64,000 bases of DNA from Clostridiaceae bacterium AM27-36LB. Its GTDB lineage: Bacteria > Bacillota > Clostridia > Lachnospirales > Lachnospiraceae. A program made the position numbers and the translations under genes. Shown one piece after another: positions 1,574 through 60,617 of this stretch. The notes beneath the pieces are model-generated. The model ran no database searches. It was not told where the DNA came from and was given only the letters and a program-made list of their open reading frames with translations. Positions within the stretch are counted from its first letter, which is position 1, and every line of letters starts with the position of its first letter. The stretch lies in the NCBI GenBank assembly GCA_003480725.1, contig QUJQ01000002.1, forward strand, positions 378,754 through 442,753, given 5' to 3'.

Positions 1574-1582
1574 AGGGATTCC

Positions 1583-1945: not shown

Positions 1946-1948
1946 CTC

Positions 1949-2503: not shown

Positions 2504-2514
2504 AAGCTTTCTCT

Positions 2515-2955: not shown

Positions 2956-2979
2956 CTTTATACCTCGCTTATTCTAAAA

Positions 2980-3023
2980 GGAGCTTTGCGAAAGCCGCTA
3001 TTACACTTACTTTGCAAAGCTCC
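2980..3023 (-). terminator. Internal terminator-like hairpin between eutH and eutQ
   Basis: A perfect 10-bp stem GGAGCTTTGC/GCAAAGCTCC closes a 24-nt loop. On the minus strand it is followed by TTTTAG. It lies inside the operon after eutH, so it probably lowers expression of eutQ and later genes or protects the upstream RNA. Confidence 0.6.
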
Positions 3024-3032
3024 GTATTTAGA

Positions 3033-4271: not shown

Positions 4272-4313
4272 ACAACCTCTCCCTTCGATTATTATCCTTT
4301 CCTACGGTAAGGA

Positions 4314-4853: not shown

Positions 4854-4856
4854 GAT

Positions 4857-6224: not shown

Positions 6225-6231
6225 TAACTCA

Positions 6232-6513
6232 TCAGATCAGCGCGACATCAACATCATGTCCGTCCACGATTCCAACTATAGTTGCATCCACCGGAATATT
6301 ACTTCCTCCGGCTGCCGGACGAGCAGAACTACCGCCAACGTAGATCACCGTTTCACCGACACCTGCGCCGATAATATCTGCTGCAATGATCGGTTCCCCG
6401 ACAGGATGCAGATCGATCAGATTAATCGGCTGAATCACAAGAAGTTTCAGTCCGTTTAAGTTTTCATCCTTTCTGGTTGCCCAGATATTTCCGATTACTT
6501 TTGCTGTCTTCAA
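6232..6513 (-). CDS. eutN: EutN/CcmL-type pentameric BMC vertex protein
   Basis: 93 residues. MKTAKVIGNIWATRKDENL and DIIGAGVGETVIYVGGSSAR are hallmarks of the EutN/CcmL/PduN fold, and the C-terminus IVDGHDVDVALI fits. Known: this family forms pentamers that close the twelve vertices of the icosahedral shell. It is the only vertex protein gene in the window, in contrast to the many facet proteins. It lies 7 bases before pduS. Confidence 0.93.
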   Translation of the reverse strand: MKTAKVIGNIWATRKDENLNGLKLLVIQPINLIDLHPVGEPIIAADIIGAGVGETVIYVGGSSARPAAGGSNIPVDATIVGIVDGHDVDVALI

Positions 6514-6549
6514 ATCAGAAACTCCTTTCTTCTAGTTTCGATTTATCAC

Positions 6550-7284: not shown

Positions 7285-7299
7285 GCGTATTCCTCCTAA

Positions 7300-8130: not shown

Positions 8131-8160
8131 CCCAATTGCTCCTGTCGATATGTTTCCTTT

Positions 8161-8772
8161 TTAATGTCTGATAATCTTTCCTAATGTAAAGCCGCTTACC
8201 ATAGCTGCATTCGCTTCATCAAAATCGATATGCATCTTATACCGGTATTTATCACTGACACGGATCACCACATCATCAAATGTCAGCATACGCTCTGTGA
8301 GCATCTGAACACTGACACGTTCTCCGTCCTTCATATTCATTTTACGGGCAATGTCCGTTGGAACATGAATATGATTATGGGCTACGATCGCTGCCGGGAT
8401 GTCTTTTAGTACACCCTTAGGTCCTTCAATGGTGATAGTTCCGGCACCTTCCAGATTGCCGGACTCCCGAACCGGAGCTTCTACTCCCAGAGTTCGTTTA
8501 TCAGTAATAGAAACCTCTACCTGAGCAGCACTTCTGGCCGGTCCCAAAACAGATACCTGTAAGGTTCCTTTTTTTCCTACCAGCTTTACTTTCTCCTCAC
8601 TCAGGAACTGCCCCGGCTGGGACAGCATACGCTTCGGGTGAAGCTGTGCACCTTCTCCAAACAGGATTTCTATCTGTTCCTGGGTCAGGTGTACATGTCT
8701 TGCCGACACTTCCACTTCGACCAGACCAGACTTTACAATAGAATCAACGACTTCGTCTATTATTCTATTCAT
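8161..8772 (-). CDS. pduL: PduL-type phosphate propanoyl/acetyltransferase
   Basis: 203 residues with two PduL domains. Metal-binding histidines are visible in EVSARHVHLTQEQ (near residue 25) and AHNHIHVPTDIA (near residue 130). Known: PduL converts acyl-CoA and phosphate to acyl phosphate plus CoA inside the compartment, recycling CoA for the aldehyde dehydrogenase. It replaces EutD of Proteobacteria, which is absent here. The N-terminus MNRIIDEVVDSIVKSG is an encapsulation-type helix. The start overlaps the end of eutT by 4 bases, indicating translational coupling. Confidence 0.93.
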   Translation of the reverse strand: MNRIIDEVVDSIVKSGLVEVEVSARHVHLTQEQIEILFGEGAQLHPKRMLSQPGQFLSEEKVKLVGKKGTLQVSVLGPARSAAQVEVSITDKRTLGVEAPVRESGNLEGAGTITIEGPKGVLKDIPAAIVAHNHIHVPTDIARKMNMKDGERVSVQMLTERMLTFDDVVIRVSDKYRYKMHIDFDEANAAMVSGFTLGKIIRH

Positions 8773-9578
8773 TTTGTCTCCTGATTCTGAAGTTTTGCCA
8801 ACTGTTTACACATCAGGATATGCATTGCACTGGACATGCGGTTTAATTCCTCGATGATATCACCTCGGTCATAACTCTTTCCGTTATGGAAAGCGGTTGC
8901 AGCCGCTACTTCTGTCTCACGCACTGCAGTCCGCATCTGATTCAATAATGCATATGTCTTACCCAGCTTATAACTTGGAAGCACCATCTGTTTTACCTTA
9001 TAATATTTCATCGGATAATGCGAATGCTCTCTCAGTTCAGCGTGGGTCAGCCCGATAATGGTTTCTCTTGTAAACGGTTCTTCCAGCACATCACATCTCA
9101 TCATTTCCCGGATACTTGTCAACACATCTTCCAGGTCTTCTACAATGGACATATCCTCGCCCATCTCGATCAGTATGGTCTGGTTCAGAACAAAGAGTGC
9201 TTCTAATGCATCCAGTTTTCCACGGAAAAGAATTCTCTTGTCGTCCTTGGCAACCAGTCTGTTTCCTGCCAGCTGTGTCATGTGTTCCGGCTTTTCAAAA
9301 TAAAATGCGCCAGTCGTATCATCTACATATTTTGGTTTCGGCAGATTTTCCGCTTTCTTCGGAACTTCAGGTTCCTGTGCAGGTGGAACATCTGTGGCTA
9401 CTACTTCAATATTACTTTTGCGGAGCGGCTTGTCTTTCGAACTAACAATTTTTACTTTATTCTGCTGCAGATATTCTCTTGCGGCCGGGGAAAGAATCTT
9501 TCCTTCCGGGATCACATAAGTCTCTATCTGTGTATCTCGCAGTTCATCCCGTAAAATTGCTTCGGTAATGACTTTCAT
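8769..9578 (-). CDS. eutT: EutT-type cobalamin adenosyltransferase, metal-independent class
   Basis: 269 residues. The start (ITEAILRDELRD...) and KPEHMTQLAGNRLVAKDDKR match EutT, and the helical core (REMMRCDVLEEPF, YALLNQMRTAVRETEVAA) matches the PduO/EutT fold. Known: EutT makes adenosylcobalamin from ATP and cob(I)alamin for EutBC. In Salmonella EutT a His-x11-Cys-Cys-x2-Cys site binds Fe(II). Here His99 is kept, but the three cysteine positions read Lys111, Asp112 and Arg115. This agrees with the Firmicute EutT class described as not needing a metal. A Pro/Lys-rich linker (about 50-85) separates an N-terminal module from the core. Confidence 0.9.
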   Translation of the reverse strand: MKVITEAILRDELRDTQIETYVIPEGKILSPAAREYLQQNKVKIVSSKDKPLRKSNIEVVATDVPPAQEPEVPKKAENLPKPKYVDDTTGAFYFEKPEHMTQLAGNRLVAKDDKRILFRGKLDALEALFVLNQTILIEMGEDMSIVEDLEDVLTSIREMMRCDVLEEPFTRETIIGLTHAELREHSHYPMKYYKVKQMVLPSYKLGKTYALLNQMRTAVRETEVAAATAFHNGKSYDRGDIIEELNRMSSAMHILMCKQLAKLQNQETK

Positions 9579-9613
9579 GTCGTGCCACCTCCTAATATGG
9601 TGTTTTATAAACT

Positions 9614-9646
9614 ACCTGCACCGGAGCCTTTACGCTCCGGGCAGGT
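9614..9646 (-). repeat. Stable hairpin between eutM and eutT
   Basis: ACCTGC/GCAGGT and CGGAGC/GCTCCG stack around a small internal loop, with a 6-nt loop on top. The following bases (TAGTTTATAAAA on the minus strand) hold no good T run, so it is more likely a processing or stability element protecting the abundant shell-gene RNA than a full terminator. Confidence 0.55.
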
Positions 9647-9660
9647 CAGTCACAAATCAC

Positions 9661-9945
9661 TTATTTAGAAAGCTGTGGCAGAATTCCTTCTACTTCCTCG
9701 TGCGGTCTCGGGATTACGTGTACGGAGATCAGCTCACCAACACGTTCAGCTGCTGCTGCGCCAGCGTCAACAGAAGCTTTTACTGCACCTACATCACCAC
9801 GTACCATAACGGTTACCAGTCCGCCGCCTACATGCTCTTTTCCAACAAGAGTAACGTTTGCTGCTTTAACCATTGCATCTGCTGCCTCGATAGATGCTAC
9901 TAATCCTTTTGTTTCAATCATTCCTAATGCCTGAGTAACTGCCAT
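9661..9945 (-). CDS. eutM: EutM/PduA-type hexameric BMC shell protein
   Basis: 94 residues, one canonical BMC domain: [40 protein letters not shown], and the C-terminal [14 protein letters not shown]. Known: EutM hexamers tile most of the shell facets and their central pores pass substrates. It follows eutE after 42 bases and precedes eutT. Its first 85 residues are very similar to the BMC part of the gene at 11470, suggesting a local duplication. Confidence 0.95.
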
Positions 9946-9987
9946 TGTAATGTCCTCCTTAAATTAATTGTCTTTTTTTTTGATATT

Positions 9988-11466
9988 TTATATTGCCTGA
10001 AGGCGCTTTACGATTTCATTGACCAGCATATCTACGTCAATATCTGCCGCCTTTGAGCCAGTACAGCAAGGAGCTGCGATCAAAGCTTCCGTATTTTTGC
10101 GGATCTCATCCATCTCCAGCAATCCTTCTGCAACAACACGAACATTGATCAAATGCTGCGGTCCTACGTTTTCAGAAGTAGCACTTCCTCCGATGGCACC
10201 GCATCCAAGTGTCAGTGCCGGGAGCATGCCTGTGGAAGCGCCGATGCCACCAAGTGCACTTGGCGTATTTACCATGATACGGGAAGCCGGTATTCTTGCT
10301 GCAAAATAATCTACGATCTTAGGATCTTTGGTATGCATGGAGAATGTATGTCCTGCCCCTTCGTAATGAAGAATCTTCTGTGCAAGTTCACAGATCTCCA
10401 CATAATTCTCTGCAGTATAGAATCCAAGGATCGGAGCAAGCTTCTCATTGGAATATGGATGTCCGAATCCGATACCGGTCTCTTTTGCAACCAGGACTCT
10501 TGTTCCTTCCGAAATCTCAATCTCAGCCAGATCTGCAATCACCTGGGCACTCTTACCAACGATCTGCGGATTCATAGTTCCGTTTGCTCGAAGGATGAAT
10601 TTTCCAAGTTTTGCGATCTGCTCATCATTCAGGAAATAAGCTCCCTGTTTTTCCATCTCGACACGAACGGCCGGTTCCATATCACAGTCGCACATAACAG
10701 ACTGCTCGGATGCACAGATCGTTCCATTGTCAAAAGTCTTGGAATCCATGATACGTTTAACCGCCAGGGCTACATCTGCTGTCTTTTCAATATAAGCAGG
10801 TCCATTTCCAGGTCCCACACCGATAGCCGGTGTTCCTGAAGAATATGCCGCACGCACCATTGCGCTGCCTCCTGTTGCCAGGATCATGGCAACATCTGGA
10901 TGTTTCATCAACATATCCGTTGCCTGAATCGTAGGTATGGTGATCACAGATACAAGATCTTCGTTTCCACCTGCCTCAGCGATGGCTGTACGAATCACCT
11001 TAACCGCTTCTACGATACAGTTCTTTGCATTTGGATGCGGAGAAAAGATAATTGCATTTCCACCCTTCAGCGCAATCTCTGATTTATAAAATGCAGTAGA
11101 CGTAGGATTTGTAGAAGGAATCAGACCTGCTACAATACCAACCGGAATTGCGATCTTTTTGGTTTTTTTCTCCTCATCTACTTCAAGTACTCCGATCGTC
11201 TTCATGTCTTTGATTGCTTCATAGACACCGCGACTTCCGAATACATTTTTTATTACCTTGTCAGCCTCGATACCAAACCCTGTCTCTTCATGAGCCATCT
11301 TCGCAAGTCTTTTTGCATTTCTGACTCCGGCTTCTGCAACGCTCTTTACGATTGCGTCTACCTCTTCCTGACTCTTCAGTGCAAATTCCTGCTGAGCTTT
11401 TTTGGCCTTTTCAACAAGATCTCTCACTTCCTGAACTGACAACAAATCTTTATCATACAACTGCAT
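9988..11466 (-). CDS. eutE: EutE-type CoA-acylating acetaldehyde dehydrogenase
   Basis: 492 residues. The catalytic cysteine is Cys251 in NGTICASEQ, and [15 protein letters not shown] and [13 protein letters not shown] are nucleotide/CoA-site motifs of the EutE/PduP/AdhE-N family. Known: it oxidises acetaldehyde to acetyl-CoA with NAD+ and CoA inside the compartment. The last 18 residues ([18 protein letters not shown]) form an amphipathic helix joined by a short linker, so the targeting peptide appears to be at the C-terminus, whereas PduP and many EutE proteins carry it at the N-terminus. It lies 3 bases from the preceding BMC gene. Confidence 0.95.
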
Positions 11467-11469
11467 ATT

Positions 11470-12057
11470 TTACATCTCCCGTCCTGTAAATTCTAGTATG
11501 TTCTGAATCAGTTCTGTCTTTTTGCCAAATCGAATCTGTTCTCTTGTCATATTATTGACCTGTAATTCTCTTGCAATGGTTCTGAGCTTTGAAACAGACA
11601 TTTTCTCCAGCATTTCTTCGGTGTAAGATTCAGCTTTTACAGGTTCTTCGATCACTGCATTGTCTGAAACTTCAGCAATCGGAGTCTCGGAAGCTTCCGG
11701 CACTGCTTCTGCTTCCGGTTCAAGCTTCAATTCCGGCTCGGGCTTCGGCTCCGGATCAGGCTCCGGAGATTTTTCCGGAGCAGGAGGCGTCGGTGGCTTG
11801 AGCATCTCGCCTACTGACTCGTGAGGTCTTGGGATCACATGAACACTGATCACCTCTCCAACTCTTTCCGCAGCACTTGCTGCTGCATCCATAGAGGCTT
11901 TTACTGCTCCTACATCTCCCTCTACCATCACTGTTACCAGTCCGCCGCCTACCTTTGTTGCTCCAAGACTGCTGACATTTGCTGCTTTTAATGCACTATC
12001 GAGAGCTTCCACTGCTGCAAGGTAACCATATAATTCAATCATTCCTAATGCTTTCAT
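11470..12057 (-). CDS. BMC shell protein with Pro/Glu linker and SAP/Rho-N-like C-terminal domain (EutK-like)
   Basis: 195 residues in three parts. Residues 1-85 are a standard BMC domain nearly identical in pattern to EutM ([25 protein letters not shown]). Residues 87-140 are a Pro/Glu-rich linker. Residues 147-193 ([18 protein letters not shown], then [12 protein letters not shown]) look like a SAP/HeH/Rho-N helix-extended-loop-helix fold, known to bind nucleic acid or proteins. Known: enterobacterial EutK also joins a BMC domain to a C-terminal nucleic-acid-binding-like domain, but a different fold (winged helix). Function of the tail here is unknown; it may face the lumen or cytosol and tether something. 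Confidence 0.85.
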
Positions 12058-12079
12058 ATAGTACCTCAGTTGTGATTAC

Positions 12080-12754
12080 TTATACCAGTGGGTTTGCTGC
12101 AACTGCCTCAACGGCTTCCGCAAATGCGTTACATGCCGCTTTACAAGCTGACTGGCTTCCAGTCAGAAGACCTCCACCAAAGTTGGTCTCACTTGGCGGA
12201 TTGTACAGAGCAACGATGGTTACATCTGCTGCCTTGATTGCTGCATCCAGAGCGTACATTGCTTCCAGAGGCGGAGCGATCAGGTATGCAAGAGCTTCAC
12301 CTTCTTTGATTCCATTGGTGCTGGACAGATAAGAACCAGTACGGGAAATGCAATGTGCATAATACGGAATGGAATCATCATCATTTGCAGATACGAAATG
12401 AGCTTCATTTTCAATAAAGTCTACAGCAGCTTCCAGGCCGGCTCTTGCCTCTGCCGGGTTCGGTCCTGCCAGAACACCAATGATCTCACCTGCGAGCTTG
12501 GTGTTTGCATTTGCTGCTCCAGCATAGAAGGAATGTGCATAGATAACGTCTACATCTGCTTTCTTTGTTGCTTCATCAAGTGCTGTATAAGTTACATCAT
12601 CACAGTCTGCTGTCAGCAGTGCCAGTGAACGATGACGCTGCGGATCATATTCAATAATTCCACCAGCTGTGATCAAATCCTGAACCATTTTCTGTGTTGC
12701 ATTCGGGATATATCTCGTTGCAAGGACAGTCGCTTTTAACGGATCTCTTTTCAT
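12080..12754 (-). CDS. eutL: EutL tandem BMC shell protein
   Basis: 224 residues with two permuted BMC domains. PLKATVLATRYIPNATQKM, LTADCDDVTYTALDEATKKA and YAHSFYAGAANANTKLAGE match EutL. Known: EutL trimers have pores that switch between open and closed states and may gate bulky molecules such as cobalamin; ethanolamine binding favours the closed form. It lies 26 bases after eutC. The length is standard. Confidence 0.93.
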   Translation of the reverse strand: MKRDPLKATVLATRYIPNATQKMVQDLITAGGIIEYDPQRHRSLALLTADCDDVTYTALDEATKKADVDVIYAHSFYAGAANANTKLAGEIIGVLAGPNPAEARAGLEAAVDFIENEAHFVSANDDDSIPYYAHCISRTGSYLSSTNGIKEGEALAYLIAPPLEAMYALDAAIKAADVTIVALYNPPSETNFGGGLLTGSQSACKAACNAFAEAVEAVAANPLV

Positions 12755-12780
12755 TTTGTTATTACCTCCATCCAGAATGA

Positions 12781-13680
12781 TTAAAGTTTAAGGTCTGTTC
12801 CACTTGCTTTTGCTTCCAGAATCTTCTTGATGATATCTGCAATATGCGCTCCTGCCTCAGCCGGGATCGTACCATCTTTGTGAATATTGGAAACAACTGT
12901 TCTTCTTGCTTCCGGCATACCAACTGTTGCCTTGTAAGCAATATATGCAGACATGGATTCTGCTGTAATAAGACCTGGTCTTTCACCGATCAGTACACAG
13001 GTAACGTCAGCGCCTGTGATCTCAGAAATCTGATCCATGACACCAACACGTCCATATTTTACAAAGAACGGTGTACCTGCTTCAATACCATAGCTCTTAA
13101 GGCCCTGAAGAATTGCCGGAAGAACATCAGCGGTATTGGCTGCAACTGCTGCGGAACTAAGTCCGTCAGATACATAGATCTGTACAGTCGGATGCATTTT
13201 GCATTTTTCTTTGATCGTCTGAACAGCTTCATCACTGAGGATACGACCAAGGTCCGGTCTTGTAAGATAGGTATCTTTACTGTCACATTTTGTCTGAACA
13301 GTGAACAGTCCAAGCTTCTCAATAACCTCTGGATCTACGTCTGTAAATACGGCATCCTGTGCTGCGGAATGTGCTGCACGGAATTCCAGTACCGGTAAGG
13401 TCTTGTATCTGGCACCTGCTTTGCCGATACCCAGACGACAAGGTGCATACTGTTTCAGTTCATAATAAGCATCTCCTGCAACCGGATGCTCTACCAGATA
13501 CTGTTTTTTAATATCAATTTCTGCTACATCTTCAACAAATCCGTCTTCTGTAGCAGCAGATGCGGTATCCGCTTTCTGTGCCGGCGCTGCGGAAGTTGCA
13601 GATGTGGTATCTGTTACGTTCATCTCAGAAAGGACCTGAGCAATAATATCTCTTAAATCTTTTTCGTTCAAAACTTCCAC
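12781..13680 (-). CDS. eutC: Ethanolamine ammonia-lyase small subunit EutC
   Basis: 299 residues. RPDLGRILSDEAV, IYVSDGLSSAAVAAN and VCVLIGERPGL are EutC signatures. Known: EutC pairs with EutB and helps bind adenosylcobalamin; the complex splits ethanolamine into acetaldehyde and ammonia. The N-terminal helix MEVLNEKDLRDIIAQVLSEM followed by a Thr/Ala/Ser-rich linker (residues 22-45) is an encapsulation peptide like that of enterobacterial EutC. It starts 6 bases after the eutB stop. Confidence 0.95.
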   Translation of the reverse strand: MEVLNEKDLRDIIAQVLSEMNVTDTTSATSAAPAQKADTASAATEDGFVEDVAEIDIKKQYLVEHPVAGDAYYELKQYAPCRLGIGKAGARYKTLPVLEFRAAHSAAQDAVFTDVDPEVIEKLGLFTVQTKCDSKDTYLTRPDLGRILSDEAVQTIKEKCKMHPTVQIYVSDGLSSAAVAANTADVLPAILQGLKSYGIEAGTPFFVKYGRVGVMDQISEITGADVTCVLIGERPGLITAESMSAYIAYKATVGMPEARRTVVSNIHKDGTIPAEAGAHIADIIKKILEAKASGTDLKL

Positions 13681-13686
13681 CTCCCC

Positions 13687-15054
13687 TTATTTCAAAAATA
13701 CAGATGCATCGCCTGCAAGGTCTGTAAGTTTTCCATCTTTTGAGAAGCCCATCTTTTCAAGCCATTCATCAAACTCTTTGATCGGACGAAGACCGAATAC
13801 TTCACGAAGAGATGCTGCCTCATGATAACCAGTACACTGATACATCAGCATACAGTCATCACCCTGCGGAACACCCATGATATAGTTGCATCCTGCTGCC
13901 ACAAGAAGAGTTGCCAGATTCTCAATATCATTCTGGTCAGCTTTCATATGGTTGGTATAGCAGGCATCGCATCCCATCGGGATACCTGTCAGTTTACCCA
14001 TGAAGTGGTCCTCAAGACCTGCTCTGGTAACCTGTTTGGAATCATACAGATACTCCGGTCCGATGAAACCAACTACGGTATTAACAAGGAACGGATGATA
14101 TCTTCTTGCGAATCCATAACAACGAGCTTCCATGGTTACCTGGTCCCATCCGTTGTGTGCTTCGGAAGAAAGCTCAGAACCCTGTCCAGTCTCGAAATAC
14201 ATGTAGTTCGGACCTGCACTGGTTCCTTTCTCATTCATCATCTGATAGCCTTCATCCAGCATGGTAGCGGTCAGACCGAAAGCCTCATTACCTTTCTGAG
14301 ATCCTGCGATAGACTGGAACAGCAGGTCGATCGGTGCGCCCTGCTTCTCACATGCTTCCATCTGAGTGGTTACATGAGCAAGTACACAGATCTGAGTCGG
14401 AACTTCCCATTTATTCTTAAATTCATCAAAGCTTCTCAGTACTCTTGCAACGCTCTCTACAGAGTCATCTACCGGGTTCAGACCGATAACGGCATCACCA
14501 CATCCAAGAGAAAGACCTTCCATAACAGATGCCATGATTCCTTTCGGATCATCTGTAGTATGGTTCGGCTGCAGTCGTGAAGAGAAAGTTCCTTCAAGAC
14601 CGATGGTAGTGTTACAATGTGCATGTACTCGGATTTTCTTTGCTGCATAAATAAGGTCAAGGTTTGTCATCAGCTTGCAGACAGCTGCAACCATCTCGGA
14701 AGTAAGACCCTGAGCTACGGTCCTGATCATTTCTCCTGTGGTATTGATGTCCAGGATCCACTCTCTTAATTCTGCCACCGTCCAACTCTGAATACTGCGA
14801 TAGATGATCGGGTCAATACCATCAATGATGATTCTTGTAACCTCATCTGTCTCATAGGGAACTGCTGGGTTTTCGAATAAATCCTTTAATGTGATGTGCT
14901 GAAGAACTGCCTTTGCTGCAATTCTCTCTTCTGCGGATTCAGCGCTGACTCCGGCGAGGTTATCACCAGATTTCTCTTCATTGGCTTTACCCATAACTTC
15001 ACGAAGAGATTTGAATTCGTAAACTTTTCCGCGTAAATGTGTCTTTAAGATCAA
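13687..15054 (-). CDS. eutB: Ethanolamine ammonia-lyase large subunit EutB
   Basis: 455 residues. RLQPNHTTDDPKGIMASVME, FETGQGSELSS, GFIGPEYLYDSKQ and GLEDHFMGKLTGIPMGCDAC are EutB catalytic-barrel motifs. Known: EutB carries the active site of the cobalamin-dependent radical lyase. Start: the frame is open further upstream to a TTG at 15075, but the Shine-Dalgarno AGAAGGAGGGC lies inside that stretch and is placed correctly for a TTG at 15054. The resulting N-terminus (Met-Ile-Leu-Lys-Thr...) aligns with known EutB starts. It lies 17 bases downstream of eutA. Confidence 0.95.
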   Translation of the reverse strand: MILKTHLRGKVYEFKSLREVMGKANEEKSGDNLAGVSAESAEERIAAKAVLQHITLKDLFENPAVPYETDEVTRIIIDGIDPIIYRSIQSWTVAELREWILDINTTGEMIRTVAQGLTSEMVAAVCKLMTNLDLIYAAKKIRVHAHCNTTIGLEGTFSSRLQPNHTTDDPKGIMASVMEGLSLGCGDAVIGLNPVDDSVESVARVLRSFDEFKNKWEVPTQICVLAHVTTQMEACEKQGAPIDLLFQSIAGSQKGNEAFGLTATMLDEGYQMMNEKGTSAGPNYMYFETGQGSELSSEAHNGWDQVTMEARCYGFARRYHPFLVNTVVGFIGPEYLYDSKQVTRAGLEDHFMGKLTGIPMGCDACYTNHMKADQNDIENLATLLVAAGCNYIMGVPQGDDCMLMYQCTGYHEAASLREVFGLRPIKEFDEWLEKMGFSKDGKLTDLAGDASVFLK

Positions 15055-15071
15055 TTTTCTTGCCCTCCTTC

Positions 15072-16505
15072 TCAAGAATTGAAAATTAGAGTTTTGGTAA
15101 CAACCGGAACAACTCGTCCCATGGCAACTGGTTCTCCGATATCAATATAATCTCCGTCATTCGCATAGATTCCATCAATACAGATAAAATCCTTTTTGCG
15201 TTCCAGGAGTACATTGATCGCATTACCCAGTACTTTGGCAATATCATTTTCTAAAACAATGATCAATGGATACGGTCCCGAGATAACCGCTTCTGCACCA
15301 TGGATGATCATCTCTGCCAGTTCCTGAACTTTTAAAAAACTGGTATGATATTTGCCGGAAACCACAATTGCTACCTGTTCCACATGACCTTCATTCATGA
15401 ATAGCTGAAGTTTTCTCTGAAGAGTCGTCTGGAACAATGCCGGGTTCTGTTCATCTTCTTCAGACATTCGCAGAACCGGAATGTTTTTTATGGGAAGTTT
15501 TCCATCCGTATACTGAATGGTACTTCCACTAACATTTGTTGTATGGGTACCTGCACCTACGACTGTGGCGCGGATCGTCTCCGCCGCCTGATAGGTCGGT
15601 ACAGTTTTGAGAACCGGATGATTCTTGATCGCCCTCGCAAGCAATACTCCTACATCATGATAGGCAAATACATCTGCCGGCTCTCCTTCATAGTAAACAC
15701 TGGCAACACCGCCTGAATAAGTAACTGCATTGATCACAGGTTCTTCTTTCAGTCTCTTTCCCTGATTGGTATACATTCTGCTGTGCATCTCATCTGCCGG
15801 CTCCTTATTGATCGCCTGTGCCAGCTGATCTGCCATCAGTTCGCATACCTTCATGAGGGTTTCTTCCTTTGCCGTATCACCGACATTGATCTCGATTCCA
15901 TGAGCTTTTGCAAGCTCCTTTGTTCCCGGGAAAATATAGTAGATTTTTCCGTTCTCGTCGATCTTGATCAATCTGCCGCCCACATCCAGGCAGCTGGTGC
16001 CTCTTAAGATTCCATTTTGGAATACGGCAATGTTGCTGGTGCCTCCGCCAATGTCCAGATTTGCCACAGTTTCTCTGTGTTCCTTTGACAGCTTGTCTGC
16101 GCCTGCACCTCTCGCCGAGAGAACAGATTCCAGATCCGGTCCTGCCGTTGCAACGACAAAATCTCCTGCCAGGTTGCTTAATGTATCCAGTACTACATTG
16201 GCATTCTGTTTTCTTGCAGTCTCACCGGTAATGATCACAGCTCCTGTGGAGAGATCCTCCGGTTTCATTCCTGCATCCTGATATTCTTTTTCAATAATTT
16301 CTTTTACCTTCTCCGCATCAATAGTCTTCTGATCCAGCAGAGGGGTAAAATAGATCTTGCTTCTGTATGTTACTTTCTTATCAACAATGTTGATCCTCGG
16401 CACCACATAATTGCTTGCCTCATTTTCAATTGTCAGTTCACTGAAAATCAGCTGTGTAGTTGATGTGCCGATATCAATTCCTACACTTTTTATGATCTCA
16501 TGCAT
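15072..16505 (-). CDS. eutA: EutA, reactivating factor of ethanolamine ammonia-lyase
   Basis: 477 residues with an actin/Hsp70 ATPase fold: VGIDIGTSTTQLIFS at residues 8-22, ANLDIGGGTSNIAVF near 147, and AVTYSGGVASVYY. Known: EutA uses ATP to expel damaged cobalamin from EutBC so that a fresh cofactor can enter. It lies directly before eutB and its first 8 bases overlap the end of eutP, so production of repair factor and enzyme is coupled. Confidence 0.94.
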   Translation of the reverse strand: MHEIIKSVGIDIGTSTTQLIFSELTIENEASNYVVPRINIVDKKVTYRSKIYFTPLLDQKTIDAEKVKEIIEKEYQDAGMKPEDLSTGAVIITGETARKQNANVVLDTLSNLAGDFVVATAGPDLESVLSARGAGADKLSKEHRETVANLDIGGGTSNIAVFQNGILRGTSCLDVGGRLIKIDENGKIYYIFPGTKELAKAHGIEINVGDTAKEETLMKVCELMADQLAQAINKEPADEMHSRMYTNQGKRLKEEPVINAVTYSGGVASVYYEGEPADVFAYHDVGVLLARAIKNHPVLKTVPTYQAAETIRATVVGAGTHTTNVSGSTIQYTDGKLPIKNIPVLRMSEEDEQNPALFQTTLQRKLQLFMNEGHVEQVAIVVSGKYHTSFLKVQELAEMIIHGAEAVISGPYPLIIVLENDIAKVLGNAINVLLERKKDFICIDGIYANDGDYIDIGEPVAMGRVVPVVTKTLIFNS

Positions 16506-16944
16506 GGCTATCCATCTCCTCCATATACTTTAGAAATGCGTCAAACCCTTCTCCTGTATAGCTGCTGGTAACAAATATCTCCTTTGCTCCTGCAAGCTTC
16601 AGATATTTTTTTGCATTTTCGATCTGTTCTTTGCTTCCAAGATCACATTTTGTCACTACACCCACGCAGGGTTTTCCAAATGTGGTTGCATATCCCGGAG
16701 GAAACATGGTGCCGCTTTCCGTTGACTGCTGTACCAGAACAATGCAGTCTACCTCAGCTGCTGTGACTGACAAAGCACCCCAGAACCGATGTTCAAAATA
16801 TTCACCTGGTGTATCGACCATCGTTTTATTTATCACCTGAATCGTCTGGGTCTTCTTATATCTCAGTTCTTCATTAGTCAAATACTGGCAAAGTGTTGTC
16901 TTGCCTGCCATGGATCTTCCAATCAGGATGATCTTGGTTTTCAT
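16498..16944 (-). CDS. eutP: EutP/PduV family P-loop protein, first copy in the operon
   Basis: 148 residues from the ATG at 16944 (Met-Lys-Thr-Lys-Ile-Ile-Leu-Ile), preceded by AGAGGAC at suitable distance; the open frame extends 27 codons further upstream without support. Walker A GRSMAGKTTL near residues 9-18, switch DTPGEYFEHRF, and TKCD base-recognition. Known: a Ras-like GTPase family linked to ethanolamine and propanediol compartments. It lies between eutS and eutA. It differs clearly from the copy at 644-1138, so the two are old paralogues rather than a recent duplication. Confidence 0.9.
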   Translation of the reverse strand: MKTKIILIGRSMAGKTTLCQYLTNEELRYKKTQTIQVINKTMVDTPGEYFEHRFWGALSVTAAEVDCIVLVQQSTESGTMFPPGYATTFGKPCVGVVTKCDLGSKEQIENAKKYLKLAGAKEIFVTSSYTGEGFDAFLKYMEEMDSHA

Positions 16945-16981
16945 GTTGCTGTCCTCTTTCTGACTTTGTAACGGTTGATCA

Positions 16982-17338
16982 TCAGGACTGTGTGATCTCT
17001 GGCTTTGCAAATCCCATATAGTCACACAATTTTGCGATCACTCCATTCATTGCCGCTTCCACGGAAGCCACTTCACCGGTAATGATCAGCGTTCCATTAA
17101 AACGATCCACAAATCCAATCTTGATTCCACCGGCTTTACTTGCCACATCTGCAGCAATGATCGCACCTTCGCTTGGCGTTATCGTAAAGATTCCGATCGC
17201 ACCATCTCCATCTATCATTCCCATCTTTGAATAAAGATCACTCACCGGATTGGGAATAATATGTGCCAGTGTAATCTGTTTGCCTGGAACAAATTCCTGA
17301 ATAATTCTTTCCTTTGATGAATCAAATTTTTCTATCAT
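16982..17338 (-). CDS. eutS: EutS permuted BMC shell protein, promoter-proximal copy
   Basis: 118 residues. QITLAHIIPNPVSDLY, IGIFTITPSEGAIIAADVA and VDRFNGTLIITG define the permuted EutS/PduU BMC fold. It starts exactly where the eutG coding region ends (one shared base), and is followed by eutP. This eutG-eutS-eutP-eutA-eutB order resembles classical Firmicute eut operons, so this is probably the orthologue of EutS, while the copies near 1142-1945 are additional. Confidence 0.92.
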   Translation of the reverse strand: MIEKFDSSKERIIQEFVPGKQITLAHIIPNPVSDLYSKMGMIDGDGAIGIFTITPSEGAIIAADVASKAGGIKIGFVDRFNGTLIITGEVASVEAAMNGVIAKLCDYMGFAKPEITQS

Positions 17339-18501
17339 CAGATCTCTCTTCCTTTATAAGCTTCCATGAAAAGCTCCTTCAGTTCTTCCCTTGTCGGAAC
17401 TCTTGGATTGGTTGCCGTACAGGAATCTGCCATTGCTGCATCCACCATCTCATCCAGAGCAGCCACAAACTCATTTTCCGGAATTCCAAGATTCTTAATA
17501 CAGGATGGTATATTCAGCTTTCTGATAAGCTGTTTCGTTGCACGGATCGCACCAAATGCACTCTGTCTGCTGCTTCCGTTATCAAGCGATAAAACAGTAG
17601 ACATCTTTGCATAACGTTCTGCCGCAGGTGTGAGAGAAGTACGGCATCCACAATTGTATGCCATCACATAGGGGAGAAGCACTGCATTGGCTCTTCCATG
17701 TGGAATATGGAAATGTCCGCCCAGGGTATGTGCCATACTGTGATTGATGCCAAGTCCTGCATTGGAAAATGCCATTCCTGCCAGACAGGATGCATGATGC
17801 ATCTTCTGCCTTGCATACAGATCTTCTTTTGTCAGTTCTTCTAAATTCTTTCCTGCTGCTTTGTACGCTTCCGGAAGATATTCAAATACAAGCTTCATGG
17901 ACTTTTCAGCAGCTGCATCGGTAAAATCATTGGCCTTTGATGAAACATACGCTTCATACGCATGTGTCAGTACATCAATACCGGTATCAGCAGTGATCGA
18001 TGCCGGCACTGTCTTGGTAAGCTCTGCATCCAGAACCGCCGCATCCGGGAGCATATTCTCAGAGATCAGCGGATATTTTGCTTTCTTATCCGGATCGCTG
18101 ATTACTGCAAAGGTCGTCACTTCACTTCCAGTACCACTGGTCGTCGGAATCGCAACAAAGTATGCTTTTTCCAGCATACCTTCTCTTGATGCCAGATAAT
18201 TCATGGCTTTTGCCGCATCAATGGAAGATCCTCCTCCCAAAGCAAACAGTACATCCGGCTTTATGTCTACCATCATAGAGATCCCTTTTGTTACAGTTGC
18301 AATATCCGGATCCGGCTTGATCTCTGAAAAGATGGTAACTTCCACACCCATTCGTGCACAGATATCTGTAATATAGGAGACCTTTCCGCTTTCATGCATG
18401 AACCGGTCTGTAACGATAAATGCTTTTTTACGGCCCTGTAAAATCTCTGTCAGCCCATCACGATCCATATAGATCCTTGGCTTCACTAAGTAGCTGTCCA
18501 T
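17338..18501 (-). CDS. eutG: EutG-type iron-containing alcohol dehydrogenase
   Basis: 387 residues. Seen: FALGGGSSIDAAKAMNYL (NAD-binding), IPTTSGTGSEVTTFAVI, and the iron-binding histidine segment INHSMAHTLGGHFHIPHGRA. Known: group III Fe-dependent alcohol dehydrogenases; EutG/PduQ reduce acetaldehyde to ethanol and regenerate NAD+ inside the compartment. No clear N-terminal targeting helix is present (MDSYLVKPRIYMDR). Transcription into it must pass a terminator at 18530-18569. It has a strong GGAGG ribosome site. Confidence 0.92.
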   Translation of the reverse strand: MDSYLVKPRIYMDRDGLTEILQGRKKAFIVTDRFMHESGKVSYITDICARMGVEVTIFSEIKPDPDIATVTKGISMMVDIKPDVLFALGGGSSIDAAKAMNYLASREGMLEKAYFVAIPTTSGTGSEVTTFAVISDPDKKAKYPLISENMLPDAAVLDAELTKTVPASITADTGIDVLTHAYEAYVSSKANDFTDAAAEKSMKLVFEYLPEAYKAAGKNLEELTKEDLYARQKMHHASCLAGMAFSNAGLGINHSMAHTLGGHFHIPHGRANAVLLPYVMAYNCGCRTSLTPAAERYAKMSTVLSLDNGSSRQSAFGAIRATKQLIRKLNIPSCIKNLGIPENEFVAALDEMVDAAMADSCTATNPRVPTREELKELFMEAYKGREI

Positions 18502-41802: not shown

Positions 41803-41848
41803 TCCTGCGAAAGCTGTTCTTACCGGCAGTTTCCGCAGGACTTTTTAT
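41803..41848 (+). terminator. Terminator of the DAHP synthase gene
   Basis: TCCTGCG/CGCAGGA with further A/T and CTG/CAG pairs, followed by ACTTTTTATTT on the plus strand. It reaches the stop codon of the converging gene. Confidence 0.75.
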
Positions 41849-44800
41849 TTCACATATTTCTGAATAAAATCCAGTATGATCTTTCTCGTCTCTTCGTAAG
41901 CATTGGCCGTCTCAAATCTCCTCTCCGGATGCCACTGCAGTGCCAGAATCTTCATTTCATCCGAACCATAGGCCTCAACCACATGGTTTTCCCTGTCGAT
42001 GGCAAGAGGTTCAAAGCAAGAAGCCAGACCTTCCTCATAGATACAGTCAGAATGATAATTGTTGACCCAGATATTTCGCTGTTCTTTCACCAGCCACACC
42101 TGATGATCCACGCCTCTTGTCCGGCTTACTGGTAGACGTGGGTGATACCAGAGCTTCCCGCCAAACATCACATTGATATACTGCATACCGCGACAAGTAG
42201 CAATGATGGGAATCCCGTGAGCCACGCAATAGTGGATCACCTGTTCTTCCATCCGGTCACGGTTGGGCTGAAGTTCATCTTCATGAGGTCTGTCATACAA
42301 CTGCGGCGGAAGAGAACCACCTCCCACCACGATCAGAAGATCTCTCTTCTTATTAAAGATCATCTCCACATTTTTTGTGAAGTTGGAAATGGTCTTTGGA
42401 ATAAATCCAAGTAATTCATAGAACCGTACATAGCCAGATTCCAGAATATCTACCGGATCTCCGTACTGATTGACCCCCTCTCTTTGGGTGATCAACGCAC
42501 TTAAATTCCGATACTGAATTCCTTCCTCGATCTTTCCAGCCCGGCAGTCCAGTGTCAGATAGCTCAGAGAAGAAACATAATTATATATCTTCTCTCCGCA
42601 ACCAATAGCAGCTGGTATTTCAAATTCCGCACATCGGATCGCCATATGGGAAGCCGCACCACCATAGCAGGTAATAAATCCTTTGATCCCTTTGGCAAAT
42701 ACCCACTCATAGCCAGGATCCGCCTTGGGAACTACTACGATCTTATCATGAATATCCACCCCCGGCTCTTCCTCCAGAAGTACCACTTCTCCCTCGATCC
42801 GTTTGGTTGTAATAAAATTAGGTCTTGCCTCGTAAACTTCCACCACATCAAGACTTTCACGGTTCAGGATCACCTCCGGCAACGAAAGCTCCCGATATTG
42901 CTGATACCGTTTATGTCTCCGTCTGATCTTCACCTCCAGTTGATCTCTCAGCTCTTCCATCGCCATATACTGAGGCAATCTGAAATCTTCAATTTCCAGC
43001 CAGGACAGATCATTTCTGGCGATCTCCATCTCATTTCCTGCACGTACCAGAAGTTCCAGAATGAGACTTAATGATTTTGTAAATTCAAATTTAAAATATT
43101 CCCGTTGTTCGATGGCGTAGCGGATAAAATGCAGCAACTGCTCGACACTTACCTGCAATCCAACTTCCTTCAAAGCCTCCGCCAGACGCCCCGGATTCAA
43201 TGCATCTTCTCTAGCTTCCGCCTTGCCTTTACTCTTTGACGGCCCCGGTCGAAAATTCATCTGGTCATACCGCTCGGTACGGATATCATAGGTTCCCACT
43301 CGCAGATGACCATATTTTTCATTAAATTCCGCACGGCTGATCTCATCCATGGAAAATGCCCGAAAATCTTTTTCAAATTCCGTGGATACAGTAGATATTG
43401 ATTGCATAAATGCATCTGTATCCTCCTGTGAAAACCAGGTCTTTCCTTCTTCGTCTGCTGGTCCGTTTTCTGTAAGACTCCGCAAAAATGCACGTGCCAT
43501 AAATGCCATTCGTGCCTGTCTGGCAAACTGTGGTGTTCCATAATGCTGTAATCCTGCCCGTAGATTCTGAACTGCTCTGAGAATCTGATAAATATCTGCC
43601 TGTTGGTTTCTAAGAAGCCTCTCCTCTTTTTTTCGAAGTTCTTCCAGTTTCTGAAGACTTGTCATGTCTTCTGCCAGAATCTCATCAAACTGAAGGATTG
43701 CCGCCATTGTCACTTCTTTTAATTTTTCCGTTAGATCCTGACGGTCATCTTCCGTAAATCCATGCTCCAGCAGACATCTGGTTCGATTTTCTGTTCCAAA
43801 ATCATAACTGGTAAACACGATTTCAAACTCGATCTTGTCATGAGCCGTCAGATTGTGTCTTAGAGCATCCTGATAATACCGCACCAGCCGGAGTGCCAGC
43901 TCCTCGTCCACCGCCTGCGGAATCAAAGAATAAAAAGCATATTCCAGACAGATGTACGGCTTATTTCCCACCCGGTGCATCAGATCTTCCTCAAGCTTCC
44001 GGAATCCGATCCGCGCAATTCCCTGATTCCAGGCCCGATGGGTAATGATTGCCCGGTAAAGAGAATAATCAAGAGGTCTCGGATTACTTCCGATGATCTC
44101 AGAAGGATTCCAGAATGCCATATCTGACATCATCATAGGCTCTTTGGTAATCACATTTTTATGTCGTTCATACATACTTCCCGCATCTTCCAGAAGTTCA
44201 AAAAATGCGTGGTCATCATAGTTTCCTGCCTGCTTATAGCTGGCCACCAGCGGCCGCATCTGAAACAGAATCACCTGGTAGTCCCTGTCAATGGCAAACT
44301 CAATATCAAGAGCCAGTCCATCCATAATATGCTCCAGCTCCCGTACTGCCAAAAGCAATTCTTTCCATGGTGAAGGCAGCCCCTCCGCCTTAATATTCCG
44401 GACGATCTTCATCATCCTTCCGGCAGAGCCGCTGGTCACACTGTCTGTAGACCCGGTCTCATCATAATTGATCAGATAATATGGTTTGTTACTTTGGATA
44501 TCGCGGGTGAAGACCACACCCCCGAGCATGACATTTCTGGCCTGACACTGAATCAGCACTTGTTCTTCTTCCAGATTGTGAATATCCCGTCGATAGGACG
44601 CAATGACTGCATCCACCGCATCAATGATTTCCTGCTCACTGGAAGAATCCACATCCAGAATACTTTTATAATGTCCCGCATTAGAACGCTGGAAAGAATC
44701 TTCTGCGGTGGAAGAGCTTCTTACCACAATCCGCCTTCCCCTGAACTGATCCATGATCTCATGGCAGACGCCGATCTTATCTCTGTGGTAGTCTCCCACC

Positions 44801-44898
44801 TGCAAAATATACATTTCCTCAATCACAGACTCATGGATCAGACTTCTTAAGGCAAACAATGTGTCTGCCTTTGTGGAAATCAATTTTCTGTGTTCCAT
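41845..44898 (-). CDS. Glutamine kinase-like (PPDK/ATP-grasp + phosphohistidine domain) fused to class I amidotransferase-like hydrolase
   Basis: 1017 residues from the ATG at 44898. (1) Residues 40-235: PPDK-type ATP-grasp, with VVRSSSTAEDSFQRSNAGHY and IQCQARNVMLGGVVFTRD. (2) A long helical middle part. (3) Around residue 751: the phosphohistidine domain, CYGGAASHMAIRCAEFEIPA with the catalytic His. (4) Residues 840-1017: a peptidase C26-type amidotransferase with VVGGGSLPPQL, ATCRGMQYINVMFGG (Cys902) and LQWHPER (His990, Glu992). Known: in Campylobacter, Cj1418 is an L-glutamine kinase with parts 1-3 and Cj1417 is a separate C26-type hydrolase acting on a later gamma-glutamyl intermediate of capsule phosphoramidate. 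Here both are one chain. No cytidylyltransferase or capsule gene is near. The gene follows the Xer-like gene by 5 bases. Activity is inferred. Confidence 0.7.
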   Translation of the reverse strand: MEHRKLISTKADTLFALRSLIHESVIEEMYILQVGDYHRDKIGVCHEIMDQFRGRRIVVRSSSTAEDSFQRSNAGHYKSILDVDSSSEQEIIDAVDAVIASYRRDIHNLEEEQVLIQCQARNVMLGGVVFTRDIQSNKPYYLINYDETGSTDSVTSGSAGRMMKIVRNIKAEGLPSPWKELLLAVRELEHIMDGLALDIEFAIDRDYQVILFQMRPLVASYKQAGNYDDHAFFELLEDAGSMYERHKNVITKEPMMMSDMAFWNPSEIIGSNPRPLDYSLYRAIITHRAWNQGIARIGFRKLEEDLMHRVGNKPYICLEYAFYSLIPQAVDEELALRLVRYYQDALRHNLTAHDKIEFEIVFTSYDFGTENRTRCLLEHGFTEDDRQDLTEKLKEVTMAAILQFDEILAEDMTSLQKLEELRKKEERLLRNQQADIYQILRAVQNLRAGLQHYGTPQFARQARMAFMARAFLRSLTENGPADEEGKTWFSQEDTDAFMQSISTVSTEFEKDFRAFSMDEISRAEFNEKYGHLRVGTYDIRTERYDQMNFRPGPSKSKGKAEAREDALNPGRLAEALKEVGLQVSVEQLLHFIRYAIEQREYFKFEFTKSLSLILELLVRAGNEMEIARNDLSWLEIEDFRLPQYMAMEELRDQLEVKIRRRHKRYQQYRELSLPEVILNRESLDVVEVYEARPNFITTKRIEGEVVLLEEEPGVDIHDKIVVVPKADPGYEWVFAKGIKGFITCYGGAASHMAIRCAEFEIPAAIGCGEKIYNYVSSLSYLTLDCRAGKIEEGIQYRNLSALITQREGVNQYGDPVDILESGYVRFYELLGFIPKTISNFTKNVEMIFNKKRDLLIVVGGGSLPPQLYDRPHEDELQPNRDRMEEQVIHYCVAHGIPIIATCRGMQYINVMFGGKLWYHPRLPVSRTRGVDHQVWLVKEQRNIWVNNYHSDCIYEEGLASCFEPLAIDRENHVVEAYGSDEMKILALQWHPERRFETANAYEETRKIILDFIQKYVK

Positions 44899-44903
44899 AC
44901 TTC

Positions 44904-45782
44904 TCACCCTCTTGGATGTACTTTGCTGTATTCATTCTTTACTTCTGGCTGAAATCCTGCATAGATCTGTGCCGCCGTAAGATCTGAATACCCCAACAAT
45001 TCCTGTATCATATGCATTCTTGCTCCGCCTGCAGCCATGTGCGCTGCACAGGAATGACGGAACATCCGCGGTGTAATATCTTTTTCGATACCAGCTCTCG
45101 CCGCATAACCTTTTAATACTTTCCAGAATCCCTGGCGGCTCATGGGTGCACCAGAGCAGTTCAGAAACAGAGTCTCTGTATCTTTCTTCAGAAATGCATC
45201 TCTTCCCCGTTCCAGATAGACCAGCAAAGCTTTTCCCGCTTTTTCGCCAAATGGAATCATACGTTCCCGACCTTCATCCCTGCACAGAATCCATCCAAAA
45301 CGCAGATTCACATCCTCCATCCGAAGGCTGATCAGTTCACTGACTCTCATACCTGTGGCATACAAAAGCTCCAGCATAGCCTTATCCCTGCATCCTTTTG
45401 GCGTATCCTCGGTGGTCTGAGCAAGCAGATGCTCCATTTCCTGAATGGTCAGTATTCCTGGCTGCTTCTTCTCCACCTTTGGCGGTTTTAACGTAAATGC
45501 AGGATCTTCCTCGATCATATGCTCCCGAAACAGATACTCAAAGAACCCTTTCATCGAGGCAATATATCTGGAAATGGTAGCTGCTGCCATTCCATCCTTT
45601 TCCAGAAGCAGCACATAGGAATTCAGATGCGTGGTCCGCACCGCGGACACAGAATCCATTCCCTGTCCATGCAGATACGCGATCATCTTGGTCAAATCAC
45701 TGTGATAGGACATGACCGTATTATGTGATGCCTTTCTTATATTTTCCAAATATGCGACAAAATATCGCAGTTCTTCTTCCAT
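44904..45782 (-). CDS. XerC/D-like tyrosine recombinase with degenerate active site
   Basis: 292 residues from the ATG at 45782 (GAGGAG upstream). The N-terminal SAM-like domain (LRYFVAYLENIRKASHNTVM) and catalytic domain (LLYATGMRVSELISLRMEDV) match XerD. Of the six catalytic positions the first Arg, the Arg of box II and the Tyr (QIYAG) remain. The beta-hairpin Lys is lost (CRDEGRERMIPFG instead of a GKGNKER-type loop), the box II His is Arg (TPRMFRHSCAAHM) and the second His is Tyr (LLGYSDLTAAQIY). Known: XerD is often beside spoIIM in Clostridia. Here it may be inactive in cutting or act only as a DNA-binding protein. Confidence 0.8.
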   Translation of the reverse strand: MEEELRYFVAYLENIRKASHNTVMSYHSDLTKMIAYLHGQGMDSVSAVRTTHLNSYVLLLEKDGMAAATISRYIASMKGFFEYLFREHMIEEDPAFTLKPPKVEKKQPGILTIQEMEHLLAQTTEDTPKGCRDKAMLELLYATGMRVSELISLRMEDVNLRFGWILCRDEGRERMIPFGEKAGKALLVYLERGRDAFLKKDTETLFLNCSGAPMSRQGFWKVLKGYAARAGIEKDITPRMFRHSCAAHMAAGGARMHMIQELLGYSDLTAAQIYAGFQPEVKNEYSKVHPRG

Positions 45783-45811
45783 AACAACTCCTCGACCTCT
45801 GAAAACTGCAT
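45737..45811 (-). CDS. Possible 24-residue leader peptide overlapping the xer-like start
   Basis: An ATG at 45811 is preceded by AAGGGAG at ideal distance and opens a frame of 24 codons (MQFSEVEELLWKKNCDILSH...) that overlaps the recombinase start in another frame. A perfect stem TTGATATC/GATATCAA encloses its ribosome site. It could couple or limit translation of the recombinase. No homology claimed. Confidence 0.35.
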   Translation of the reverse strand: MQFSEVEELLWKKNCDILSHIWKI

Positions 45812-45842
45812 TGATATCTCCCTTCAGATCAGATATCAATAT

Positions 45843-45871
45843 TAGATTCAGTATAGCCAAGTATGTTGTGA
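45843..45871 (-). promoter_or_regulatory. Promoter of the xer-like/glutamine kinase-like operon
   Basis: TTGAAA and TATACT with 17 bases between them on the minus strand, in the gap after spoIIM. Coordinates are within a few bases. Confidence 0.6.
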
Positions 45872-45889
45872 ATTTCAATCTTTTTTTCA

Positions 45890-46453
45890 CTATATTTTAC
45901 GTAAAATCTGCCTGACAAGTCCCGGATTCAAGGCCGCCTCACATGCAACTCCAAAGAACAGAAAAAACAATCCCAAAGCCGCCAGAAAAACATATTTTTT
46001 TCGGTTCGATCCTCCACAGGAGGTCCACAGAATCACCCACCCAAAGGCCGGTACATAGAAAAGGATCTGCGGAAACAGTCCGGCTACACAGATCATCAGC
46101 CCCTTTCCACCCAGCTGGATCACTGAGATTCCCGCCATGGTTCCCCAGAGCATTCCTGTCAGAAATAACAGTCCAGTCAGTATAGCCGGTGCCAGCGGAA
46201 GAAATCCCGCGCACACAACTGCCAGATACTGACTTATCCGATAACCACCTATGTACAAGAACAATTTTTCTATATTAACAGACAGGGAAGCATATTGATT
46301 CAGAAAATATTCACTGAATAATCCTGTATCTGCTGTCGTTGCTTTTGTCTGTGCGATCAAAACACCTGCAATGATCCCTGCAAAGAATACCATCGGCCCT
46401 GGTTTCCACCTGATGCCGCTATTCGTATACTGCCTCCATATCCTCCCTAACAC
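45890..46453 (-). CDS. spoIIM: Stage II sporulation protein M-like
   Basis: 187 residues with about five membrane helices: MVFFAGIIAGVLIAQTKA, LAVVCAGFLPLAPAILTGLL and the C-terminal LGLFFLFFGVACEAALNPG. Known: SpoIIM, with SpoIID and SpoIIP, drives engulfment of the forespore. Start is a GTG at 46453; its GGGGAGG ribosome site lies in the 3' arm of the upstream terminator and the T run serves as spacer. The conserved end (Glu-Ala-x-x-Asn-Pro) is present. Confidence 0.8.
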   Translation of the reverse strand: MLGRIWRQYTNSGIRWKPGPMVFFAGIIAGVLIAQTKATTADTGLFSEYFLNQYASLSVNIEKLFLYIGGYRISQYLAVVCAGFLPLAPAILTGLLFLTGMLWGTMAGISVIQLGGKGLMICVAGLFPQILFYVPAFGWVILWTSCGGSNRKKYVFLAALGLFFLFFGVACEAALNPGLVRQILRKI

Positions 46454-60197: not shown

Positions 60198-60617
60198 TTA
60201 CTTCATGAAGCGATCAATGGCCTCTGCCAGTTCTTTCACTGATTCCATATCTCCACACTCTACTGCATCTACCAGACAGTGTTCAATATGTTCCTTAAGA
60301 ATCACTTTTCCGGTATTATTGATAGCCGACTTTACAGCTGACAGCTGTATCAGCACCTCACTGCAGTCTCTTCCTTCTTCCACCATGCGACGGATAGATT
60401 CCAGATGTCCAATCGCTCTGGAAAGACGATTCAGCACTGCTTTTGTATTCGTATGAGTATGCGTGTGTCCATGTCCATGGTTGTGGCAGCACTCATCATG
60501 GTCATGATCATGGGTATGCCCCTCATCATGACTGTGCACATGCTCATGATCGTGATGTACGTGCTCATAAATCGTTCCATCAGGAGCCACATGCACATGT
60601 CTTCCCTCTTCTGACAT
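60198..60617 (-). CDS. CsoR-family metal-responsive repressor with histidine-rich N-terminus
   Basis: 139 residues. Residues 57-139 are the CsoR/RcnR four-helix fold (VLNRLSRAIGHLESIRRMVE). Cys85, His110 and Cys114 reproduce the spacing of the copper(I) site of CsoR (25 and 4). Residues 7-55 contain 19 histidines and two cysteines (HVHHDHEHVHSHDEGHTHDH and similar), which is not part of the normal family. Known: CsoR releases DNA on binding Cu(I). The head could store or sense Ni, Zn or Co (inference). No metal pump gene is next to it; it follows pyk. Confidence 0.85.
   Translation of the reverse strand: MSEEGRHVHVAPDGTIYEHVHHDHEHVHSHDEGHTHDHDHDECCHNHGHGHTHTHTNTKAVLNRLSRAIGHLESIRRMVEEGRDCSEVLIQLSAVKSAINNTGKVILKEHIEHCLVDAVECGDMESVKELAEAIDRFMK

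Follow-up and report, generated by a model that had tools for sequence, protein, structure and literature searches.

A kinase-hydrolase fusion of the glutamine-kinase family, predicted to release phosphoramidate, in cytidylyltransferase-free loci of mostly gut Clostridia

Glutamine kinases belong to a kinase class that turns adenosine triphosphate (ATP) into adenosine monophosphate and phosphate, and in the Campylobacter route cytidine diphosphate (CDP) is attached between the kinase and the hydrolase steps (order of Cj1416 and Cj1417). Phosphorylation of the amide nitrogen of glutamine by Cj1418 is described in passages of PMC10971088 and PMC6429109 (the gene name is absent from the latter passage), and according to a passage of PMC11800397 Cj1415-Cj1418 jointly make CDP-phosphoramidate 3'-phosphate. 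In this kinase family, the known phosphoramidate chemistry has been linked to capsule decoration and CDP intermediates. Here, a gene for a fused glutamine-kinase-like protein and C26 hydrolase (41845..44898, minus strand) is described in a 64,000-nucleotide stretch of contig QUJQ01000002.1 of Clostridiaceae bacterium AM27-36LB, called the window below. With a probability of roughly 55%, its product is predicted from sequence to be a bifunctional enzyme that phosphorylates the glutamine amide and, with no CDP chemistry involved, releases phosphoramidate.

The Cj1418-type L-glutamine kinase (EC 2.7.3.13, capsule phosphoramidate pathway) has the same NCBIfam family and the same kinase-domain order as the window kinase. 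Unlike the Cj1418 type, the window kinase is fused to its hydrolase and lies outside any capsule locus, and no cytidylyltransferase was found with it. The Cj1417-type gamma-glutamyl-CDP-amidate hydrolase (NCBIfam NF045546), which adjoins the kinase in loci of the full, Campylobacter-like type, has the C26 family and the catalytic triad in common with the C-terminal domain of the fusion, but this domain is fused, reaches 59.6 bits against a cut-off of 250 and may act on a substrate that lacks CDP. The nearest fold is that of rifampin phosphotransferase RPH-Lm (5hv1, 5fbt), yet the rifamycin phosphotransferase model NF041857 gives 31.9 bits against a cut-off of 999. The solved C26 hydrolases PuuD and SpuA are stand-alone proteins some 250 amino acids (aa) long with gamma-glutamyl amine substrates, gamma-glutamyl-gamma-aminobutyrate for PuuD (entry title) and gamma-glutamyl-polyamines for SpuA. 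No fused or cytidylyltransferase-free form was described in the literature searched by title and start of abstract (the primary glutamine-kinase papers might mention one); within this literature, the parts themselves are already known, and what appears to be new is that they are fused and uncoupled from the CDP step throughout a clade of Clostridia, mostly from the gut.

Domains and family of the fused protein

The gene starts with an ATG at 44898, ends with a stop at 41845-41847 and encodes 1017 aa, and the plus-strand frame displayed over 41845-44898 has many stops. From the N- to the C-terminus, the protein consists of an ATP-grasp domain, a central domain, a phosphohistidine domain and a C26 hydrolase. 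Pfam matches, all above the gathering scores, were obtained for PPDK_N (best stretch 55-142), PEP-utilizers (PF00391, 718-788) and Peptidase_C26 (815-992), and the hydrolase domain also matches the class-I glutamine amidotransferase family PF00117. The reading frame and these matches bear out the initial annotation, made from the sequence alone, of a single 1017-residue chain with the phosphohistidine stretch GGAASHMAIRCAE and the triad Cys902/His990/Glu992. The same four Pfam accessions, at lengths of 989-1040 aa, were present in all of the best 120 of 2476 homologues (E 1e-3), indicating that the fused architecture is not due to chance.

The ATP-grasp domain covers about residues 1-225 (44224..44898, minus strand; approximate boundary) and keeps Lys10, Arg60, Glu66, Asp67, Glu200, Gln213 and Arg215. 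In the central, mostly helical domain (about residues 226-690; 42829..44223, minus strand), the motif SDMAFWNPSE is invariant across 19 aligned fused homologues, and by analogy with the layout of rifampin phosphotransferase this domain presumably holds the amide substrate. The phosphohistidine swivel domain follows (about residues 691-795; 42514..42828, minus strand; approximate boundary), where GGAASHMAIRCAE corresponds to residues 746-758 and contains His751 (42646..42648, minus strand), the presumed phosphoryl carrier. The catalytic His in GGxxSH and the ATP-grasp residues that mark glutamine kinases were all found (His751, Arg60, Glu200, Gln213, Arg215). The C26 gamma-glutamyl hydrolase domain occupies residues 796-1017 (41848..42513, minus strand), and the kinase/hydrolase junction coincides with the start of the stand-alone hydrolases (ALITQRE). 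Its Cys-His-Glu triad is complete, with the nucleophile Cys902 (42193..42195, minus strand) and His990-Pro-Glu992 (41923..41931, minus strand), and the Cys, His and Glu are each present in 64/64 hydrolase rows.

Residues 5-791 scored 749.3 bits in NCBIfam NF004508 (cut-off 501). This model carries only the label 'hypothetical protein', and its content was probed via kinases adjoining Cj1417 equivalogs. Of 200 genomes drawn from the phylum to which a Helicobacteraceae relative belongs (Campylobacterota), 33 had a hydrolase above the NF045546 cut-off, the label 'Campylobacter' for these loci following from equivalog and phylum. In the 12 of these 33 loci that were examined (L095-L106), a kinase frame adjoined the hydrolase in 12/12 and a Cj1416-like gene was present in 11/12, L105 having none within the 1.5 kb examined past the hydrolase. 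Five wider stretches yielded full kinases of 773-781 aa beside Cj1417 equivalogs, and the three scanned against NF004508 scored 1076-1098 bits; therefore, NF004508 holds Cj1418-type kinases. Sequence comparison places the first 790 residues in the glutamine-kinase family, as opposed to the families of rifampicin phosphotransferase and phosphoenolpyruvate (PEP) synthase. The comparison with Cj1418 and Cj1417 that had been proposed initially was thus positive for the kinase, and the hydrolase proved to be related without being an equivalog.

A closer likeness to rifampicin phosphotransferase or PEP synthase, which the initial annotation had considered, was not found by sequence. PEP synthase models gave 26-45 bits (TIGR01418, 40.1 bits against a cut-off of 739.75), and identity with either enzyme was rejected with 26-45 bits against cut-offs of 598-999. 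By fold alone, rifampin phosphotransferase is the nearest solved kinase, and a PDB sequence search with 26 matches gave no chain under the name glutamine kinase. With such scores, and with the clade grouping of the kinase tree repeated in the hydrolase tree (below), an antibiotic-modifying or PEP-forming enzyme carrying a chance C26 fusion is highly improbable.

Related loci with and without a cytidylyltransferase

With one genome scanned per species, 79 loci were obtained from the best 80 of 109 relatives. All frames of these loci and of the window were sorted using hidden Markov models that represent the Cj1416-like enzyme or a HIGH-type cytidylyltransferase domain at the N-terminus. The full type comprised 39/79 loci, 37 of which hold a Cj1416-like frame of at least 186 bits, and the remaining 40/79, without a Cj1416-like frame and without a HIGH domain, were called the Clostridia type. 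The latter included 28 fused genes (two partial), four adjacent kinase-hydrolase pairs, six lone kinases and two kinase fragments; the two partial fusions and two fragments occur pairwise in two genomes and possibly represent just two genes. The pattern noticed initially extends past the window to these related loci. Polysaccharide-gene markers (14 proteins from four full-type loci, chosen by eye and counted without self-hits) were found in 19/39 full-type loci versus 0/40 Clostridia-type loci, the neighbours of the latter being ordinary chromosomal genes that vary by subclade. The window likewise contains housekeeping genes and an ethanolamine-utilisation operon (gene names by eye), and a scan of all frames across its 64 kb detected none that is Cj1416-like, confirming that the gene lies outside any capsule locus.

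The record titles of the 40 Clostridia-type loci are mostly Lachnospiraceae, Butyrivibrio or Clostridia, and those of a few metagenome bins read Bacteroides, Alistipes or Thermoflexaceae. These odd titles may be wrong, since one such bin, L015, falls in the genome sample from the family of Lachnoclostridium sp. An196. As a separate observation, 30/39 full-type loci have an extra HIGH-type cytidylyltransferase domain at the kinase N-terminus, usually in addition to a separate Cj1416-like gene; such kinases include L027, L036, L044, L045, L047, L048 and L053, with record titles from Bacteroidota to archaea.

Because the sorting itself used the transferase, the trees serve as an independent test of the locus types. 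Both were quick, midpoint-rooted trees, and the direction of change is read from the position of the clade within the full type. In the kinase tree (73 rows, after removal of 8 near-copies and 5 short pieces), the fused form was one group (19 rows, support 100), and the fused, lone and 3/4 paired forms together were one group nested among full-type kinases (28 rows, support 99). The fourth pair, L037, was a long branch, and holding it with the Clostridia-type group (29 rows) gave a slightly better likelihood and was not rejected (approximately unbiased test, p-AU 0.62). In the hydrolase tree (64 rows, excluding near-copies, partial fusions, L001, and L058 and L069, which had no hydrolase match), the fused and all four paired forms were one group nested among the full type (22 rows, support 99). 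The topologies suggest a single loss of the transferase, with the fusion occurring afterwards.

The lack of a nearby cytidylyltransferase in the initial annotation held for the window and was also observed in whole genomes of related bacteria. No Cj1416 orthologue was found in 34 Clostridia-type genomes (those of L005, L021, L046, L056, L060 and L074 were left out), the best match being 97.6 bits and 14/34 having no match at E 1e-10; in full-type control genomes, the same model found its gene in 4/4 at 387-402 bits. Most of the 34 genomes are metagenome bins and may be incomplete, and the gene was also not found in the genomes of Lachnoclostridium sp. An196 and Eubacterium sp. MSJ-21, which carry no label of a metagenome-assembled genome. 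The Cj1416-like gene of a Campylobacter-type phosphoramidate pathway was thus found neither in the window nor in the 40 loci or the 34 genomes.

Weaker, mostly partial nucleotidyltransferase matches (42-98 bits) were present in 20/34 Clostridia-type genomes, many of them within open reading frames roughly 600 aa long. They favor an alternative in which the kinase makes N-phosphoglutamine, an unrelated nucleotidyltransferase encoded elsewhere adds a nucleotide before the hydrolase acts, and a surface polymer is decorated as in Campylobacter. Two hydrolase residues also speak for it: Asn947 and Ser979, invariant in the Clostridia-type clade, co-occur in six full-type hydrolases whose loci (L028, L029, L030, L033, L040, L066) keep the transferase, and they are therefore no mark of a CDP-free substrate. 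This alternative is considered unlikely, since 14/34 genomes have no match at E 1e-10 and polysaccharide-gene markers are missing beside the Clostridia-type loci.

Conserved residues and the proposed reaction

As a reference set, 83 columns at least 95% conserved in the 39 full-type kinases were taken, a column being kept when at least 90% of rows agreed. Of these, 80 were kept in 27 fused rows, 81 in 4 paired rows and 76 in 6 lone rows, and each of the five Campylobacterota kinases keeps 78-80. His751 was present in 38/39 rows of the full type and in 90% or more of the rows in each Clostridia-type group. Four columns, all conservative-looking, separated 37 Clostridia-type from 39 full-type kinases. 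The fused gene is under strong purifying selection by a rough estimate, the ratio of nonsynonymous to synonymous substitution rates (dN/dS) against close relatives being 0.03-0.055 in the 5/10 comparisons with estimable dS, where dS was about 2-3 and near saturation. Under different sets, clade-specific fixed columns of the Clostridia type numbered 26/206 in the hydrolase versus 9/783 in the kinase, and 18/206 and 6/783 in a control clade that keeps the transferase nearby (except L067). A substrate switch of the hydrolase with lost CDP recognition, read from such residues, was dropped because the control clade was similar and Asn947/Ser979 occur with the transferase.

In the proposed reaction, the N-terminal kinase would use ATP and a phosphohistidine shuttle to place phosphate on the side-chain amide nitrogen of L-glutamine, giving N-phosphoglutamine, and the fused C26 domain would cut the gamma-glutamyl bond via a Cys902 thioester, releasing glutamate and free phosphoramidate. 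Since the cytidylyltransferase has apparently been lost in the clade, no CDP would be attached between the two steps, unlike in Campylobacter. We infer glutamine as the substrate, the step order and phosphoramidate as the product; the computed support consists of the kinase family, the intact catalytic residues in both domains, purifying selection, the grouping inside three-gene loci and the failure to find a cytidylyltransferase.

Several observations weigh against this proposal. The C26 domain is far below the NF045546 cut-off, and is by sequence a distant relative of the Cj1417-type hydrolase rather than a Cj1417 equivalog; the separate hydrolase of L052 (67.8 bits) and the hydrolases of the full-type genomes tested (59.5-180.7 bits) also fail, indicating that the cut-off marks Campylobacterota forms and not function. 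Identity of the window kinase to the five Campylobacterota kinases is low (31-33%), so that its substrate could have drifted. The full-type locus L067 has no Cj1416-like frame, and the contig of L071 ends shortly past the hydrolase. The gene is patchy, being present in 7/200 sampled genomes of the bacterial family of genome G001 and in 10/17 of its genus, and one of the seven family carriers, G341, combines hydrolase and transferase in a locus of the full type. In the six lone-kinase genomes, no dedicated Clostridia-type hydrolase was found (five without a match at E 1e-10, one at 60.9 bits), and the same model detected it in 12/12 fused or paired genomes at 365-401 bits. As the lone-kinase clade lies inside the same group, phosphoramidate is not obviously its product, raising the question of whether N-phosphoglutamine itself is.

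The low identity to the Campylobacterota kinases, together with PuuD and SpuA being the nearest solved C26 structures, would also suit a kinase acting on another amide or gamma-glutamyl compound, with the hydrolase trimming the product. The retention of 80/83 conserved kinase columns in the fused form and the few clade-specific kinase columns (four by one criterion, 9/783 by the other) argue against such a change, which is regarded as rather improbable. The PF00117 match further allows an ammonia channel, which a fusion would suit: the C26 domain would hydrolyse glutamine, and the phosphohistidine would phosphorylate the ammonia to phosphoramidate, glutamine itself not being the kinase substrate. 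This is very unlikely, since the first step in Campylobacter is direct glutamine phosphorylation in the passage of PMC6429109 and the six lone kinases keep 76/83 columns without a dedicated hydrolase.

If the proposed formation of phosphoramidate by the fusion is true, free phosphoramidate or N-phosphoglutamine would be a metabolite to seek in gut anaerobes, and the protein looks soluble. In this clade, mostly of gut or rumen bacteria by record titles, the first enzymes of the route appear uncoupled from the transferase, fused and under purifying selection, and the bacteria may make an N-P compound for a purpose other than capsule decoration. More tentatively, gut Clostridia could possess an N-P metabolism independent of cytidine triphosphate, in which the phosphoramidate of the fusion (N-phosphoglutamine in lone kinases) would be a phosphoryl donor, a store or a final product, with no relation to capsule decoration.

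Neighbouring genes

Directly upstream of the fused gene and on the same strand lies a gene for a XerD-like tyrosine recombinase (44904..45890, minus strand), which scored 303.7 bits, under the NCBI XerD cut-off of 329.6. The fused gene starts 5 nt past the stop of this gene, with AGAGGG immediately 5' of the ATG, and the two genes are probably on one transcript. The XerD-like gene sits in a proC-SpoIIM-like gene run and borders the fused gene both in the window and in loci L001-L010.

No recurring neighbour was accepted as a clue to the function, because neighbours vary by subclade and those that recur were judged too common or too few for an interpretation. PutP-like symporters, hotdog thioesterase and HAD-like genes (the last by eye) each recur in two contexts; the PutP-like sodium/proline symporter gene is beside or near the kinase in L019, L020 and L046 and, in an unrelated context, in L032-type loci. 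In the lone-kinase clade (L032, L034, L035, L038, L043, L050), the kinase lies within a conserved pyrH-frr-uppS run, and a bactofilin-like gene (by eye) intervenes in 5/6 of these loci, the copy of L035 having no NCBIfam match.

Elsewhere in the window, the ethanolamine-utilisation microcompartment operon (about 1-18500) encodes Eut enzymes and shell proteins (by eye), and a CsoR/FrmR-like metal-sensing repressor (by eye; 60198-60617, minus strand) has an unusually His-rich N-terminal tail.
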